Source: Olleya namhaensis
Lineage (GTDB): Bacteria; Bacteroidota; Bacteroidia; Flavobacteriales; Flavobacteriaceae
Length of the DNA stretch: 64,000 nucleotides
Reading direction: 5' to 3'
Assembly: GCF_900114005.1 (NCBI RefSeq)
Contig: NZ_FORM01000002.1
Location: 372,001 to 436,000, forward strand
The notes below the pieces were generated by a model. The model searched no databases, was not told the origin of the DNA, and saw nothing but the letters and a program-made list of their open reading frames with translations. A program made the position numbers and the translations under genes. Positions within the stretch are counted from its first letter, which is position 1. The number at the start of each line of letters is the position of its first letter. Below, piece after piece: positions 57,266 through 61,618 of the stretch.

Positions 57266-59854
57266 ATGAAACATAGCCTTATCATATTCTTTTTTTTAAT
57301 CTTCGGAAGTTGTTTTTCGCAGGATTTAGAAGAAGCGATCTATGTTGCTACAGAAGCTTTTAATGCAAACCGAAATACTGAAACATTTTCAAAATTATTA
57401 AATAAAGAAACCGATTTTAAACCGCAACTAAAAACAAAAGACCATTATTTTGCCTACTTGTTTTTATTAGTAAACAAAGCCAATCATTTAGACAATATCA
57501 ATCAACAGACAAAAGCTATTGCAGCTTACGAAGCAGCTTTAGATGTTTATAACCAACAAGAGTTAAACAAAGTATATACCTATAACATTACAGAGTATTG
57601 CTTAAAACCATTAGGCATCCTTTATAATAAGGTAGGAGATTACACCAACGCAGAAAACACGATTAAACACTATCTTTTTCTTGCAGAAAAACAAAAAGAC
57701 AACCCTAACAAAATTAGTGGTACTATAAATTTAGCACAACTATATTACACTATTGGTAAATTTAAGTCTGCAAATACTGTAGCTAAAAATGGATTAAACA
57801 CTAACGGACTAACCGCTAGTCAAAAGCAAAAACTAATTCAAATAAATGTTAATTGCCAAATTGCATTAAATCTTATATCAAGCACAGAAGATATTCCTAC
57901 CAAAAACAATGTGGAGGCGTATAACCTGAACACGTTAGAAACAGATTACAATCTTGCTATCAAAACAAAAAAACACAAACAGGCGCTCCAACATTTAAAT
58001 AAAATAATATCCAAAGCCTATAATAACACTACTAGTAGCAGCAGAATGCTAGCAAAACTGCATGTCAAAAAAGCACAACTTCACTATAAATTAGATCAGT
58101 CTGAAGCGTCCTTAACGGAGCTAAAAGGAGCATTAAAATTTTTGATTCCTAATCAAGATTATAATGGACTTCCAAAAAAGGAAACCTTATATCCAGAAAA
58201 CACCTTTATAGATATTTTTGACTTACTTGCTGAATTACAACCCAATCATAACAATGCATTGGCATGTTACGACTTAAGTTTTTATGTTTCCAACTTGCTT
58301 ACAAGTACCTTGACCTCTCAGGAAGCTAAACTTATTCATTTAAGCGCCAACAGAAAACGAAGTGAATCTTGTATAAATTTACTTTTTGATGCTTTTCAAA
58401 CAACCTCTAATACAACCTACATTGAACTCGCCTTTAATTATGCAGAAAAAAACAAGGGAGCTATTTTAAAGGAAATGGTTGGCAAAAAAACACTACTAGA
58501 ACGTTATCCTGAAGACAGCTTATTAATACAAGAAGATTACTTTTTAAAACAACAAGCACGTTTAACCAACACATTGATAAAAGCACAGTATCAAAAAAAC
58601 GGGGTACAAACAGACACTGTAAGCCAAGCGTTAACCACAGTAAGTAGGACCTTAAAACAGTTACAAGAAAATATTAACAATAAATATCCTGAGTCCAGCG
58701 ATACTTCAGCATCAATCCAACAACTTCAAAGTAAATTAAAACAAGATAATGCCTTATTAGTTGAGTACTTTTATGGCGAAACAGATGTCTTTCAATTTAT
58801 AATTTCTGATAAAACAGTAGCGCTTAATAAAATTAAAAAAGACTCCGTTTTTGATCAGTCAATAGCAAAGTATATTGACTATTTTAATAATTCGTCTGCA
58901 ATAAACAACAACATCCCAAATTTTACAGCAGACGCTTTTAACCTCTATCAATTATTACAGTTTGACACTACTTCAGTATCCAAAAATGTAATAATCATAA
59001 CCGATGGTTTTTTAAACTTTATTCCTTTTGAAAGCTTATTAAGCCAAAAGACAAACACTACAAGTTATTCCAAAATGCCCTTTGTTGCTAATACCCAAAC
59101 TTTAGCCTACAATACAAGTGCATTATTATATTTAAACACTTCTGACTTTAAATATACCGATAGTGTTTTGGGTGTCTTTCCTGTATTTCAAAACAGTAAC
59201 GCCACACTAACTTACTCTTTAAACGAAGCCGAGAGCATAGATAAACAAACCAATGCTAAATTTTTAATGCATCAAGCCGCTACCAAAAACGATGCCTTAC
59301 AACAAGCAAAAAATTACGGTGTTTTACATTTATCTACACACGCAAGCAGTGGTACATTTAACATTCCAGCAAACATTGATTTTATTGACCAAAAATTATT
59401 TTTAAACGATCTTTACAGCCTTGATTTAAACAATCAATTGGTTGTGTTAAGTGCTTGCGAAACTGGCATAGGGCGACTTACAAAAGGGGAAGGTAGCATG
59501 AATTTGGTTCGTGGGTTTCAATATGCGGGTATTGAAAACATTCTATTTTCATTATGGAAAATTAATGATTTATCGACGTCTAAATTAATGGCTTCATTTT
59601 ACAAAAATTACAACACTACAAAGTCGCCTTTTGCAGCTAATCATTTAGCTAAATTAGATTACTTAAATGACCCATCTATTTCAAATGTAAAAAAGTCACC
59701 ATATTACTGGAGCGCCTTTATGTATTATGGCCATTTAACGCCGATCAAACCAACTAGTAAAACAAAATATATCCTTTTTACTTTTATTGGTTTAGGTATT
59801 GCTTTACTTTTATGGATTATAATACGTAGACGCAAAAATGGACAACACACTTAA
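57266..59854 (+). CDS. TPR-CHAT (caspase-like) protease-fold membrane protein
   Basis: 862-residue protein from the ATG at 57266 (signal peptide MKHSLIIFFFLIFGSCFSQ; an earlier in-frame ATG at 57215 lies inside the previous gene). Residues about 30-450 are TPR-like helical repeats. The C-terminal CHAT domain has the caspase-type dyad: His692 in LHLSTHASSG and Cys731 in VVLSACETGIGRL, followed by GEGSMNLVRGFQYAG and SLWKINDLSTS. One span (FTFIGLGIALLLWIII) and a basic tail end the protein. With an exported N-terminus, most of the chain should lie outside the cytosol with a short cytosolic tail. It overlaps the protease gene by 17 bp. Confidence 0.85.
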   Translation: MKHSLIIFFFLIFGSCFSQDLEEAIYVATEAFNANRNTETFSKLLNKETDFKPQLKTKDHYFAYLFLLVNKANHLDNINQQTKAIAAYEAALDVYNQQELNKVYTYNITEYCLKPLGILYNKVGDYTNAENTIKHYLFLAEKQKDNPNKISGTINLAQLYYTIGKFKSANTVAKNGLNTNGLTASQKQKLIQINVNCQIALNLISSTEDIPTKNNVEAYNLNTLETDYNLAIKTKKHKQALQHLNKIISKAYNNTTSSSRMLAKLHVKKAQLHYKLDQSEASLTELKGALKFLIPNQDYNGLPKKETLYPENTFIDIFDLLAELQPNHNNALACYDLSFYVSNLLTSTLTSQEAKLIHLSANRKRSESCINLLFDAFQTTSNTTYIELAFNYAEKNKGAILKEMVGKKTLLERYPEDSLLIQEDYFLKQQARLTNTLIKAQYQKNGVQTDTVSQALTTVSRTLKQLQENINNKYPESSDTSASIQQLQSKLKQDNALLVEYFYGETDVFQFIISDKTVALNKIKKDSVFDQSIAKYIDYFNNSSAINNNIPNFTADAFNLYQLLQFDTTSVSKNVIIITDGFLNFIPFESLLSQKTNTTSYSKMPFVANTQTLAYNTSALLYLNTSDFKYTDSVLGVFPVFQNSNATLTYSLNEAESIDKQTNAKFLMHQAATKNDALQQAKNYGVLHLSTHASSGTFNIPANIDFIDQKLFLNDLYSLDLNNQLVVLSACETGIGRLTKGEGSMNLVRGFQYAGIENILFSLWKINDLSTSKLMASFYKNYNTTKSPFAANHLAKLDYLNDPSISNVKKSPYYWSAFMYYGHLTPIKPTSKTKYILFTFIGLGIALLLWIIIRRRKNGQHT

Positions 59855-60290
59855 AGACTTTTTATTTGCCAAAGACTATATTAGAGTTAAACTAAAACTA
59901 ACTAAAACCAATCATTTTGAAATAAAAGCAACTATTAATGGTGTAAAAGGATTGTTTATTTTAGATACTGGTGCTTCCAATAGTTGTGTTGGTTTTGAAG
60001 CTGCTCAAAAATTTGAACTAAAAAAGGTCAAAGACTCTAAAATACTAGCTGCAGGAGCAGGTGCTACCAATATGGCAACTCAGGTTTCTAAAAACAATAC
60101 TATTAAACTAGGACGTCTAAAAATATACAAATCGGCTTTAGTATTGTTTGATTTAAGTCATGTTAATACGGCATTAATAAACCACAACGCACAACCTGTT
60201 GACGGTATAATTGGAGCAGACATTTTAAAGAAGGTAAAAGGAATAATTGATTACGAAAAAAAATATTTGTACCTTAAAAAATTAGTATAA
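59838..60290 (+). CDS. Retropepsin-like aspartyl protease
   Basis: 150-residue single-domain retropepsin-fold protein with no signal peptide. The catalytic Asp43 is in FILDTGASNSCVG, and the flap-side and second psi-loop motif is in VDGIIGADILKK. Like viral retropepsins it should act as a homodimer. Its gene overlaps the CHAT gene by 17 bp and is followed 60 bp later by the response regulator. It could cut the CHAT protein, the regulator or an anti-sigma in a proteolytic relay; that is inference. Confidence 0.82.
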   Translation: MDNTLKDFLFAKDYIRVKLKLTKTNHFEIKATINGVKGLFILDTGASNSCVGFEAAQKFELKKVKDSKILAAGAGATNMATQVSKNNTIKLGRLKIYKSALVLFDLSHVNTALINHNAQPVDGIIGADILKKVKGIIDYEKKYLYLKKLV

Positions 60291-60350
60291 GCCTTTATTT
60301 TTATTTAGTTTTATTGGTTACAAACAACCTCCCAAAAGACCCTTTAATTT

Positions 60351-60998
60351 ATGAGTGCAACTATTGTAATAGCAGATGACCACCCCTTAATGCTAAGAGG
60401 CCTTTCTGATTTTATTACTTCCAAAGGATTTGATATTATTGGTAGCGCCGAAGATGGTCAAACAGCTTACAATCTTATTGTTAAGCTAAAACCAGATTTA
60501 GCATTATTAGATATTAGAATGCCTAAAATGACAGGCTTAGAAGTTGCAGAAGCTTGTTTTAAAAACGAATTAGACACAAAAGTTATCCTGATAACCTTTG
60601 ATAACGAGGAGCATTTATTTGATAAGGCTAGAGCATGTAATGTTTACGGTTATATATTAAAAGAATTTGCTGTAGAAGAAATTGAAACCTGTATTGCTCA
60701 TACCTTAAAAGGAGAACATTACTTTAGTCAAGAAATGGCGTCTTACCTTAATGCTAAGGTCACCTACTCTAGCTCTACCTTAACAGAACTTTTAACACCC
60801 ACAGAGATTAAGGTGGTTAAGCTATTATCAGAGAAACTGACCTCAACAGAAATTGCAGAACAACTGATGTGTTCTCCAAGAACCATTGAGAAGCATAGGA
60901 GTAATATTGTAAAAAAATTAGATTTAAAAAAATCGCATAACGAGTTGATGCTTTGGGCAAATATGAATAAAGACATAATAAACGACGCTACCATATAA
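60351..60998 (+). CDS. NarL/FixJ-family response regulator (LuxR-type HTH)
   Basis: 215-residue two-component regulator. The receiver has Asp9-Asp10 (IADDHP), phosphoacceptor Asp54 (LALLDIRMP), a Thr in LITFDN, and Lys in YILKEF. The C-terminal LuxR HTH reads LTPTEIKVVKLLSEK followed by TSTEIAEQLMCSPRTIEKHRSNI. No histidine kinase gene is in the window, so its partner is encoded elsewhere or absent. The gene ends 48 bp before three identical 22-bp palindromes in tandem, which are the natural candidates for its binding sites. Confidence 0.92.
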   Translation: MSATIVIADDHPLMLRGLSDFITSKGFDIIGSAEDGQTAYNLIVKLKPDLALLDIRMPKMTGLEVAEACFKNELDTKVILITFDNEEHLFDKARACNVYGYILKEFAVEEIETCIAHTLKGEHYFSQEMASYLNAKVTYSSSTLTELLTPTEIKVVKLLSEKLTSTEIAEQLMCSPRTIEKHRSNIVKKLDLKKSHNELMLWANMNKDIINDATI

Positions 60999-61046: not shown

Positions 61047-61068
61047 AAATACGTAGTTCTACGTATTT
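61047..61068 (+). promoter_or_regulatory. Palindromic operator, unit 1
   Basis: AAATACGTA-GTTC-TACGTATTT: perfect 9-bp arms, 4-bp spacer. Its 3' end runs into the -33 region; the centre lies about 44 bp before the predicted start, a class II activator position. Predicted -7 box TACCTTTA (61089-61096) departs from TAnnTTTG at the last base, as expected of an activator-dependent promoter. Confidence 0.8.
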
Positions 61069-61100
61069 CACAGGTCATTTATATCTTATACCTTTACATT

Positions 61101-61168
61101 GCTATTAATCAATTTTGGGAGAATTGATAAAGCTCTAAAACGGATTTCTGTTTTGGAGCTTTTTTTTT
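61101..61168 (+). ncRNA. Predicted small RNA 1
   Basis: About 68 nt. Hairpin 1 is ATCAATT/AATTGAT (61108-61114, 61122-61128) with loop TTGGGAG. Then a 13-bp terminator stem AAAGCTCTAAAAC/GTTTTGGAGCTTT (61129-61141, 61150-61162; one G-U pair) with eight-nt loop and long T tract. No ORF of useful size. Start inferred from the -7 box. Confidence 0.75.
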
Positions 61169-61185
61169 GAAATCACCTCAAATTA

Positions 61186-61207
61186 AAATACGTAGTTCTA
61201 CGTATTT
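61186..61207 (+). promoter_or_regulatory. Palindromic operator, unit 2
   Basis: Identical 22-bp palindrome; -7 box TACCTTTA at 61228-61235. Between them the spacer sequence varies from unit 1 while its length is fixed. Confidence 0.8.
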
Positions 61208-61239
61208 CATAGGTTATATAAATAATTTACCTTTATAGT

Positions 61240-61305
61240 ATTAGTAATCAATTTTGGGAAAATTGATAAAGCTCTAAAACGATCTTTTGTTTTGGAGCTT
61301 TTTTT
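61240..61305 (+). ncRNA. Predicted small RNA 2
   Basis: Same structure as RNA 1: ATCAATT/AATTGAT (61247-61253, 61261-61267) with loop TTGGGAA, then the same 13-bp terminator arms (61268-61280, 61289-61301) and a different loop (GATCTTTT). Confidence 0.75.
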
Positions 61306-61324
61306 ATGACTAGATCTCAGATAA

Positions 61325-61346
61325 AAATACGTAGTTCTACGTATTT
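61325..61346 (+). promoter_or_regulatory. Palindromic operator, unit 3
   Basis: Identical 22-bp palindrome; -7 box TACCTTTA at 61367-61374. Promoter flank nearly identical to unit 1. Confidence 0.8.
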
Positions 61347-61378
61347 CACAGGTCGTATATATCCTCTACCTTTACATT

Positions 61379-61444
61379 GCTATTAATTAGTTCTTAGGGA
61401 GAATTATTTAAGGAAACTCTGTACTGTAATGGTGCAGAGTTTTT
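61379..61444 (+). ncRNA. Predicted small RNA 3 (diverged)
   Basis: Different primary sequence, same plan: hairpin AATTAGTTC/GAATTATTT with one mismatch and one G-U pair, loop TTAGGGA; then terminator AAACTCTGTAC/GTGCAGAGTTT (61414-61424, 61432-61442) and a short T run. The GGGA loop core is shared by all three RNAs. It may also act as a leader for the ORF at 61461 if the terminator is leaky. Confidence 0.65.
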
Positions 61445-61460
61445 AAATTAAACACATAAT

Positions 61461-61571
61461 ATGGATTTAGAAAAAAGAACACAAGAGCAAAACCGCATAA
61501 TTGCTGGATGTATTATTATATTAACCGTAGTAATAATAGCTTTTAATTTGTTTATCTATTTTGACAAATAA
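61461..61571 (+). CDS. 36-residue single-span membrane protein
   Basis: Short ORF M-DLEKRTQEQNR-IIAGC... ending YFDK: a charged 12-residue start, one hydrophobic span of about 20 residues, and a short tail. It lies 16 bp after the RNA 3 terminator and ends just before a strong terminator, so it is placed like a real gene. It may be transcribed from the third palindrome promoter by read-through. No family recognised. Confidence 0.6.
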   Translation: MDLEKRTQEQNRIIAGCIIILTVVIIAFNLFIYFDK

Positions 61572-61585
61572 AAATCAATAACAAC

Positions 61586-61618
61586 AAAAAGGGAGCAACA
61601 ATGTTGCTCCCTTTTTTT
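61586..61618. terminator. Bidirectional terminator between the small ORF and odhB
   Basis: AAAAAGGGAGCAACA/TGTTGCTCCCTTTTT perfect stem with A and T tracts on both sides, serving the plus-strand ORF and the minus-strand odhB. Confidence 0.88.

Follow-up and report, generated by a model that had tools for sequence, protein, structure and literature searches.

A response regulator (RR) gene in a 64,000-nucleotide stretch of Olleya namhaensis DNA (the window) is followed by three similar units, each made of a palindrome, a -7 box at fixed distance, and a short predicted RNA. Several features can be read directly from the DNA: the palindromic sites with their constant spacing, the association of the units with the RR gene, covariation in one hairpin of the RNA, and an excess of complementarity between the RNAs and the leader of the RR mRNA. 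We infer that the RR binds the palindromes and activates transcription, and that the RNAs are made, pair with the RR mRNA, and repress it. Our preferred reading, which we consider moderately probable, is that the locus constitutes a self-limiting module. The active RR would bind the 22-bp palindromes ~44 bp before the start sites and switch on a set of similar ~65-nt RNAs together with a ~33-aa one-helix membrane protein encoded behind the last unit. The RNAs would pair through a GGGAG hairpin, and in many genera also through their GCUAUUAAU 5' end, with a zone of the RR leader lying roughly 5 to 35 nt before the RR start codon. The pairing would lower RR translation and thus create a negative feedback, and the RR would act on curli amyloid genes as well.

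The array and its linkage to the response regulator

The RR (60351 to 60998, + strand) is a LuxR/NarL-type protein of 215 aa that scores over the cut-offs for PF00072 and PF00196. It is predicted to contain a receiver domain with acidic pocket and phospho-acceptor as well as a GerE helix-turn-helix; residues D9, D10, D54, T82, and K104 are invariant in nine aligned sequences. Its closest named relatives, from Olleya, are 77 to 91% identical. By inspection, TAGTTTTA at 60306 to 60313 (+), upstream of the gene, may be the -7 box of the promoter that drives the RR. Further upstream, at 59838 to 60290 (+), lies an ORF of 150 aa for a retropepsin-like aspartyl protease (Pfam PF13650).

Forty-eight nucleotides past the RR stop, the first of three copies of the palindrome AAATACGTAGTTCTACGTATTT begins. 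As had been reported in a preliminary description of this DNA, the copies (61047 to 61068, 61186 to 61207, and 61325 to 61346, all +) contain no mismatch and are spaced by 139 and 139 bp. With up to three mismatches allowed, the mean number of such 22-mers in 100 shuffles was 0.00. Over 139 nt, the identity to unit 1 is 83% for unit 2 and 63% for unit 3. The proposed -7 box, TACCTTTA, also proved constant. It is found 23 nt past the inner TACGTA in each unit (61089 to 61096, 61228 to 61235, and 61367 to 61374, +) and recurs in relatives. The palindrome center is located ~43.5 bp ahead of the expected start, in agreement with the class II activator geometry (about 44 bp) initially suggested.

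The predicted RNAs fold as described, with two hairpins each. RNA 1 (61101 to 61168, +) opens with a GCTATTAAT start region and carries a hairpin at 61108 to 61128 and a terminator at 61129 to 61162. The corresponding elements of RNA 2 (61240 to 61307, +) lie at 61247 to 61267 and 61268 to 61301, and those of the unit 3 RNA (61379 to 61445, +), which may act as a small RNA (sRNA), as a microprotein leader, or as both, at 61383 to 61411 and 61412 to 61444. The folded lengths of units 1 to 3 are 70, 69, and 72 nt, and the folding z-scores are -5.93, -6.98, and -5.74, with equal folds in 0 of 200 shuffles. The second hairpin, described as an intrinsic terminator, is terminator-like in all units and was returned by the terminator scan for RNAs 1 and 2; that of unit 3 is weaker, with a short T tail (TTTTTAAAT), and is absent from the scan list. 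The start region of unit 2 has diverged.

A search of Flavobacteriaceae genomes for the palindrome and the units, as initially proposed, revealed a conserved locus. Each of 81 loci has units 3' of the RR gene; the set comprises the best 80 of 334 RR orthologue loci from named species genomes plus the window. In total, 215 units passed a filter that allowed at most two half-site mismatches and demanded the -7 box, with one mismatch allowed, exactly 23 nt on. The same filter gave three matches, one of them a full site, on both strands of the remaining ~481 kb of these loci. The site scan had yielded 255 rows, from which we dropped 33 at spacings of 22 or 24 nt and 7 at 23 nt that had three mismatches. 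Three mismatches were present in 28 of the 33, most of which were true sites read in an offset register, and two or fewer in the other five; a perfect site at 22-nt spacing (L038, +923) was among the rows dropped. Since the filter demands the box, its conservation is partly by construction. The stretch behind it, ACAnTGCTATTAAT, was not demanded, and 13 of its 14 columns are 79 to 94% conserved over the 81 loci. Two units per locus were found in 51 loci of this best-80-plus-window set and eight in one. The first core begins 2 to 12 nt past the RR stop in 60 of the 81 loci, overlaps the stop in 4, and follows 29 to 162 nt on in 17. A stand-alone retropepsin-like protease of the same cluster as that in the window accompanies the RR in 79 of these 81 loci.

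The distribution was further assessed with a covariance model of the unit. Of the 215 units, 151 had a G-rich loop; 65 of these were distinct, and 46 were chosen for the alignment, so that the model and the pair counts given below rest on chosen units. With no more than 12 or 14 candidates scored per genome, the model matched at least 113 of 349 genomes of the family Flavobacteriaceae (81 of 237 genera). In a sample of the whole phylum, at least 4 of 296 genomes matched, all 4 in Flavobacteriaceae. The coordinate linkage was evaluated in 81 genomes from the listed places, 77 of which also had a listed RR match at 1e-55; in all 77, a unit lies on the same strand within 2.5 kb downstream of the RR. 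The named orthologues and the family genomes are two collections that overlap, and because the genomes are related, these counts overstate the number of independent events. Three genomes (G099, G133, and G244) have units but no RR match at the 1e-55 threshold. In another (G049, L213), the array follows the protease gene, with no RR between the two.

The simplest model put forward in the preliminary description, an RR that activates three sRNAs, thus agrees with the linkage (81 of 81 loci, best 80 of 334 plus the window, and 77 of 77 genomes) but is incomplete. It tied the RR to the RNAs and overlooked both the microprotein leader and a likely target of the RNAs, the RR's own mRNA.

A covarying hairpin and its complementarity to the regulator's leader

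Hairpin 1 of the RNA keeps its shape while its sequence varies; it is covarying. With the structure set by hand from folds of these RNAs, 83.2% of its cells pair as compared to 79.7% in shuffles, 29 cells are changed on both sides as compared to 13.4, and the covariation score is 0.315 as compared to 0.244, each with 0 of 500 shuffles as high. Two of the five covariation measures are not clearly above shuffles, namely, the pairs with a double change (45 of 500) and the pair types (82 of 500), and on these two, slid versions of the hairpin sometimes equal or exceed the true one. A GGG is present within the loop region in 113 of 134 non-last units, and the 20-mer TTAGTTCTTAGGGAGAATTA is invariant in 55 non-last units of 51 loci. 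The covarying hairpin, together with the lineage-matched complementarity to the RR leader described below, suggests selection on the RNA.

The RNA had not been recognized as a member of a described family, and no Rfam family other than tRNA was found at gathering score when the window and 11 further loci were searched. The window as a whole gave only a tRNA, the array region 49 matches at E values up to 10, every one below the gathering score, and the 11 loci only tRNAs. No array, RNA, or RR of this kind was described in the titles or abstract openings of the open-licence PMC papers that we searched. Elsewhere in the same genome (contig 14, near 43795; L157/L187), a hairpin-terminator unit, CTTTACAGTGCTATTAATCTAAAGGGAATTCC, without the TACGTA palindrome lies directly 3' of another gene with a LuxR-like C terminus (256 aa). 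The two are perhaps a second regulator-RNA pair.

In the window, the RR leader contains CTCCCAAAA at 60329 to 60337 (+), 13 nt before the ATG, which is a perfect 9-nt complement of TTTTGGGAG in the hairpin of RNA 1. We found CTCCCAAAA in three of the four genomes that have TTTTGGGAG-type units and in no other genome. When 60 gene leaders of the window were ranked by duplex energy, folding ignored, the window RR leader came first, with -18.5 kcal/mol. In 33 of the 81 loci, an RNA is perfectly complementary over at least 10 nt to the RR leader of its locus; this length is reached by 3 of 383 leaders that belong to other genes of the same loci and by 89 of 4050 shuffles. For at least 9 nt, the respective counts are 47 of 81, 18 of 383, and 260 of 4050. 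The match reaches 13 nt in one locus (L033), while 26 of the 81 RR leaders do not exceed the chance level, their longest complement being 7 nt or less. Many genomes, though not all, thus show complementarity to the RR mRNA close to the start codon.

We detected ATTAATAGC in 24 of 81 RR leaders and its reverse complement in none. AATAGC, which is part of the complement of the RNA 5' end, occurs in 44 of 80 leaders, 21 to 33 nt before the ATG. CTCCC is found in 20 and TCCC in 37 of 81 leaders, as compared to none for their reverse complements; the reversed letters CCCTC and CCCT occur in 9 and 37. Leaders with CTCTC fall, in 16 of 17 cases, within the 40 genomes that have a GAGAG unit (Fisher p 2e-5, kinship ignored). 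CTTAGGGAG units occur in 70 genomes, only 5 of which have CTCCCTAA. Complementarity is greater within genomes than after permutation, with 0 of 2000 permutations as high for the loop part and 1 of 2000 for the 5' end, although permutations among related genomes are not independent. Twenty distant RR loci that also have RNAs served as an independent set; among them, AATAGC was found in 8, TCCC in 12, and CTCCC in 0, and a complement of at least 9 nt in 5, as compared to 3.2% of shuffles. In 20 RRs without RNAs, AATAGC and CTCCC were both found in 0 and TCCC in 4; these are a poor negative control, because most of their upstream stretches consist of the 3' part of a kinase gene.

Both complementary segments are present in 29 leaders, in parallel order in 29 of 29, and hence one RNA cannot use both as one continuous duplex. 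Two RNA molecules could pair with the two segments, or one segment could be used at a time. In the distant set, three loci (L292, L295, and L302) have both segments in the ordinary antisense order.

It is also possible, if not what we would expect, that the RNAs pair chiefly with other mRNAs and that their match to the RR leader reflects a lesser branch of feedback or is in part due to chance. According to the excerpts of the papers cited below, multicopy RNAs driven by an RR usually have multiple targets (OmrA/B, Qrr, and FopS), and here, conservation of the RNA 5' end and loop extends to genomes whose RR leader has no match. On the other hand, a scan of the window's own genome for the 12-mer loop complement with at most one mismatch returned 34 places, and the 30 inspected included no leader of another gene (of at least 60 aa), which is a weak test.

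In a third reading, the GGGA loops of the RNAs would soak up a CsrA-like RNA-binding protein, as in GacA/Rsm systems. The architecture of Gac/Rsm, a LuxR-type RR and several RNAs with GGA in their loops, is present here, with RR control predicted from sequence, and AGGGA, which resembles the CsrA motif, occurs in 97 of 134 non-last units. However, each RNA has one loop only, and CsrA (PF02599) scored above cut-off in 0 of 60 genomes, including 10 of the window's genus, its own among them, while Escherichia coli, Bacillus subtilis, and Thermotoga maritima, the positive controls, all matched. We therefore set titration of CsrA aside as improbable, although the loops may bind a different protein. 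Mimicry of an anti-Shine-Dalgarno sequence, with the CCUCC tail as pairing partner, was considered on paper and dropped, since GGGAG makes just four pairs with that tail.

The membrane microprotein and a presumably older form of the locus

The preliminary feature list captured the array but omitted a 36-codon ORF behind unit 3 (61461 to 61571, +). This small hydrophobic ORF encodes a predicted membrane microprotein with one helix, MDLEKRTQEQNRIIAGCIIILTVVIIAFNLFIYFDK, and is kept in relatives. A hydrophobic small ORF follows the last unit in 77 of the 81 loci (best 80 of 334 plus the window), as compared to 252 of 3240 random starts under the same rule. It has mostly 31 to 39 codons (~33 aa), with 52 in two loci. 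The exceptions are L032, which is cut by the contig end, L038, whose last unit was lost in filtering, L044, and L056. The microprotein matched no Pfam family above cut-off. Behind it, a bidirectional terminator (61586 to 61616) closes the locus against a convergent gene that is sucB-like by inspection of its sequence. One arm of this terminator contains GGGAG and the other CTCCC, the letters of the RNA hairpin and its candidate target; this is probably a coincidence.

Terminator tails could be scored for 203 of the 215 units. Those before the microprotein contain a mean of 5.47 T of 9 (73 units), as compared to 6.75 in the 130 other units, which is expected if some transcription runs through. 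The three units had been taken for paralogous sRNAs, but the third probably serves as the leader of the microprotein, either in addition to or in place of a role as a free sRNA. The lower T count and the resemblance of the units to copies of the microprotein promoter region would also suit a scheme in which the units are decoy sites and attenuated leaders, the palindromes titrating the RR and the short transcripts being by-products of the microprotein promoter. We consider this unlikely, as both the covarying hairpin and the lineage-matched complementarity to the RR leader argue against it. A type I toxin-antitoxin system, with the hydrophobic microprotein as toxin and the RNAs as antitoxin, would account for the proximity of a small hydrophobic ORF to short RNAs within one tandem locus but is highly improbable, because the RNAs and the microprotein leader are alike (they share a start region) rather than complementary, as judged by inspection, and the microprotein is kept in 24 of 32 loci where the RNAs are absent.

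These 32 related RR loci (47 to 53% identity) were chosen by hand; 31 are in genomes without an RNA match, and one, L199, is a second RR copy in a genome (G242) that does have the RNAs. They also bear on the assignment of the window's RR as an orphan NarL/LuxR-type regulator just upstream of the array. Its class and its orphan state in the window stand, but 31 of the 32 related loci have an adjacent kinase-like frame with a DNGxGF motif within 400 nt upstream of the RR. Ten of these frames were read and correspond to histidine kinases, and one that was run against Pfam matched HisKA_3, HATPase, and TPR. In the window's genome, the best match to a cognate kinase, at 30% identity, was not convincing. 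A related genome (G008; L164/L303) contains a candidate partner, a frame of 1000 aa; its kinase part shows 49% identity to the kinase that accompanies the RR in other genera, and a GCTATTAAT start region lies ~2.3 kb upstream of the kinase match.

Behind the RR, 28 of the 32 related loci have a palindrome with at most one mismatch, mostly TACGTG-N4-YACGTA, in two cases at a distance exceeding 100 nt; a hydrophobic small ORF is present in 24. In 15 of the 32, the palindrome is followed after 27 nt by TTTAC, which matches the phasing seen in the arrays. In 10, an ATG follows 8 nt after TTTAC, about at the expected transcription start, so that the mRNA would have little or no leader. In the simplest history, whose direction we infer, leader, terminator, and copies would have been added later to a kinase-RR-palindrome-microprotein form. 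We tentatively suggest that the sRNA family was born by copying of the microprotein promoter. The older module would have comprised kinase, RR, palindrome, and a leaderless or nearly leaderless microprotein. One large branch of Flavobacteriaceae would have lost the kinase gene and gained a leader with hairpin and terminator, of which tandem copies would have become sRNAs that pair with the RR leader. If this is true, one locus would combine two feedback arms, the RNA acting on the RR mRNA and the microprotein on a membrane sensor, with curli amyloid under the control of the locus, and it would suggest how a small-protein promoter can give rise to an sRNA array. We can only guess that the microprotein restrains a sensor kinase in the manner of MgrB. 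MgrB of the PhoP/PhoQ system is a small membrane protein under an RR that exerts negative feedback, as the cited excerpt describes it (PMC7808668), and its likeness to the microprotein is one of analogy only.

Known systems, curli genes, and dispersed palindromes

In outline, the proposed circuit resembles those of OmrA/B and Qrr, as a functional kind and not as a homology family. OmpR is not a LuxR-type regulator, LuxO belongs to the sigma-54 type of activators, and no single tandem array of qrr genes lies behind luxO, whereas here, a LuxR-type RR precedes a tandem array. Bacteroidota are not known to encode Hfq. The candidate RR site at each sRNA promoter would be the palindrome at fixed spacing before each of the 215 units in 81 loci, to which the RR is predicted to bind.

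The comparisons that follow draw on excerpts of the cited papers. OmrA and OmrB of E. coli are twin OmpR-activated sRNAs that repress the mRNA of their regulator, in a negative feedback, and csgD of curli control (PMC12692685). The likeness would extend to similar sRNAs activated by an RR, the proposed feedback on that RR, the curli link, and the 5' end, which is the pairing part of OmrA/B; in contrast, the array described here is located 3' of the RR gene, with a microprotein ORF at its end. The Qrr sRNAs of vibrios are several similar sRNAs under LuxO that repress LuxO in a negative feedback loop (PMC3262071), similarly to the RNAs proposed here to act on the one RR that would control them. 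LhrC1-5 of Listeria are five almost identical short sRNAs that depend on a two-component system, being activated by LisR, and whose CUCCC motifs pair with a Shine-Dalgarno region (PMC4132741). They share with our RNAs the near identity, the short length, and the proposed tie to a two-component system, but in LhrC, the CUCCC is in the RNA, while here, the RNA carries GGGAG and the RR leader is the candidate target. The FopS family of Bacteroides, from the same phylum, consists of multicopy sRNAs of similar length (about 65 to 70 nt) that repress SusC-like transporters and whose genes, found at loci of several kinds, have canonical housekeeping promoters (PMC11697453); the excerpt of its description mentions no RR link, in contrast to the candidate RR sites of our units. 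Post-transcriptional control in Flavobacteriaceae is little known, and a deletion study of the sRNA Rfp18 in Flavobacterium psychrophilum is the one such study that we found (PMC9723704). The locus described here provides an sRNA family whose candidate activator, candidate target, and candidate output are all readable from the sequence and, for Bacteroidota, adds a conserved microprotein as well as a candidate regulator of curli.

The exact 16-nt core of the palindrome occurs six times in the whole genome, three times in the array and three times at a curli locus on contig 27. This type VIII locus (L111, 250000 to 266000) encodes four curlin-repeat proteins, CsgE, CsgF, and CsgG. All three palindromes precede curlin-repeat genes, and two of them end 167 nt before a CTTTACAGnGCTATTAAT start region. 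Palindromes 158 to 179 nt before a GCTATTAAT start region were found at the curli loci of eight genomes from three genera (G000, G002, G005, and G008; G139 and G341; G116 and G329), and at each of these loci, at least one curli protein was confirmed by Pfam. A pattern of this geometry matched 20 genomes, in 6 of them at curli genes and in 1 (G279, L212) not; the remaining 13 matches are, by coordinate, at or beside RR loci. CsgD of E. coli is described as a LuxR-family regulator of curli genes. It resembles the RR described here in family, and the sites here differ in lying 158 to 179 nt before the start region of the curli genes.

Palindromes elsewhere that are linked neither to the RR nor to the RNAs had been named in the preliminary description as evidence that would speak against its model. 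Such palindromes do occur, at the curli genes and at other promoters, but their positions fit a single regulon in which the RR would control the curli genes, the RNAs, and the microprotein.

Two genomes stand out by their number of exact cores, 28 in G004 and 37 in G005, arrays included. Here, palindromes precede small unrelated genes (L112, L113, L115, and L116) with a bias to one strand (23 of 28 and 33 of 37), and some repeat beside near-identical gene fragments. In the four loci that were read, 12 of 13 dispersed palindromes have a TAnnTTTG box, with at most one mismatch, 23 nt on. For the idea that a gene-cassette integron houses the dispersed palindromes of these two genomes, the integron-integrase model matched nine of nine genomes below its cut-off and also 14 of 14 controls, so that its matches do not discriminate. 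In the window's own genome, palindromes with perfect half-sites (TACGTAGTTATACGTA) precede genes without known function at two further places (L221 and L222; contigs 12:151269 and 22:301984), with the box TAGTTTAG or TAAGTTTG 23 nt on.
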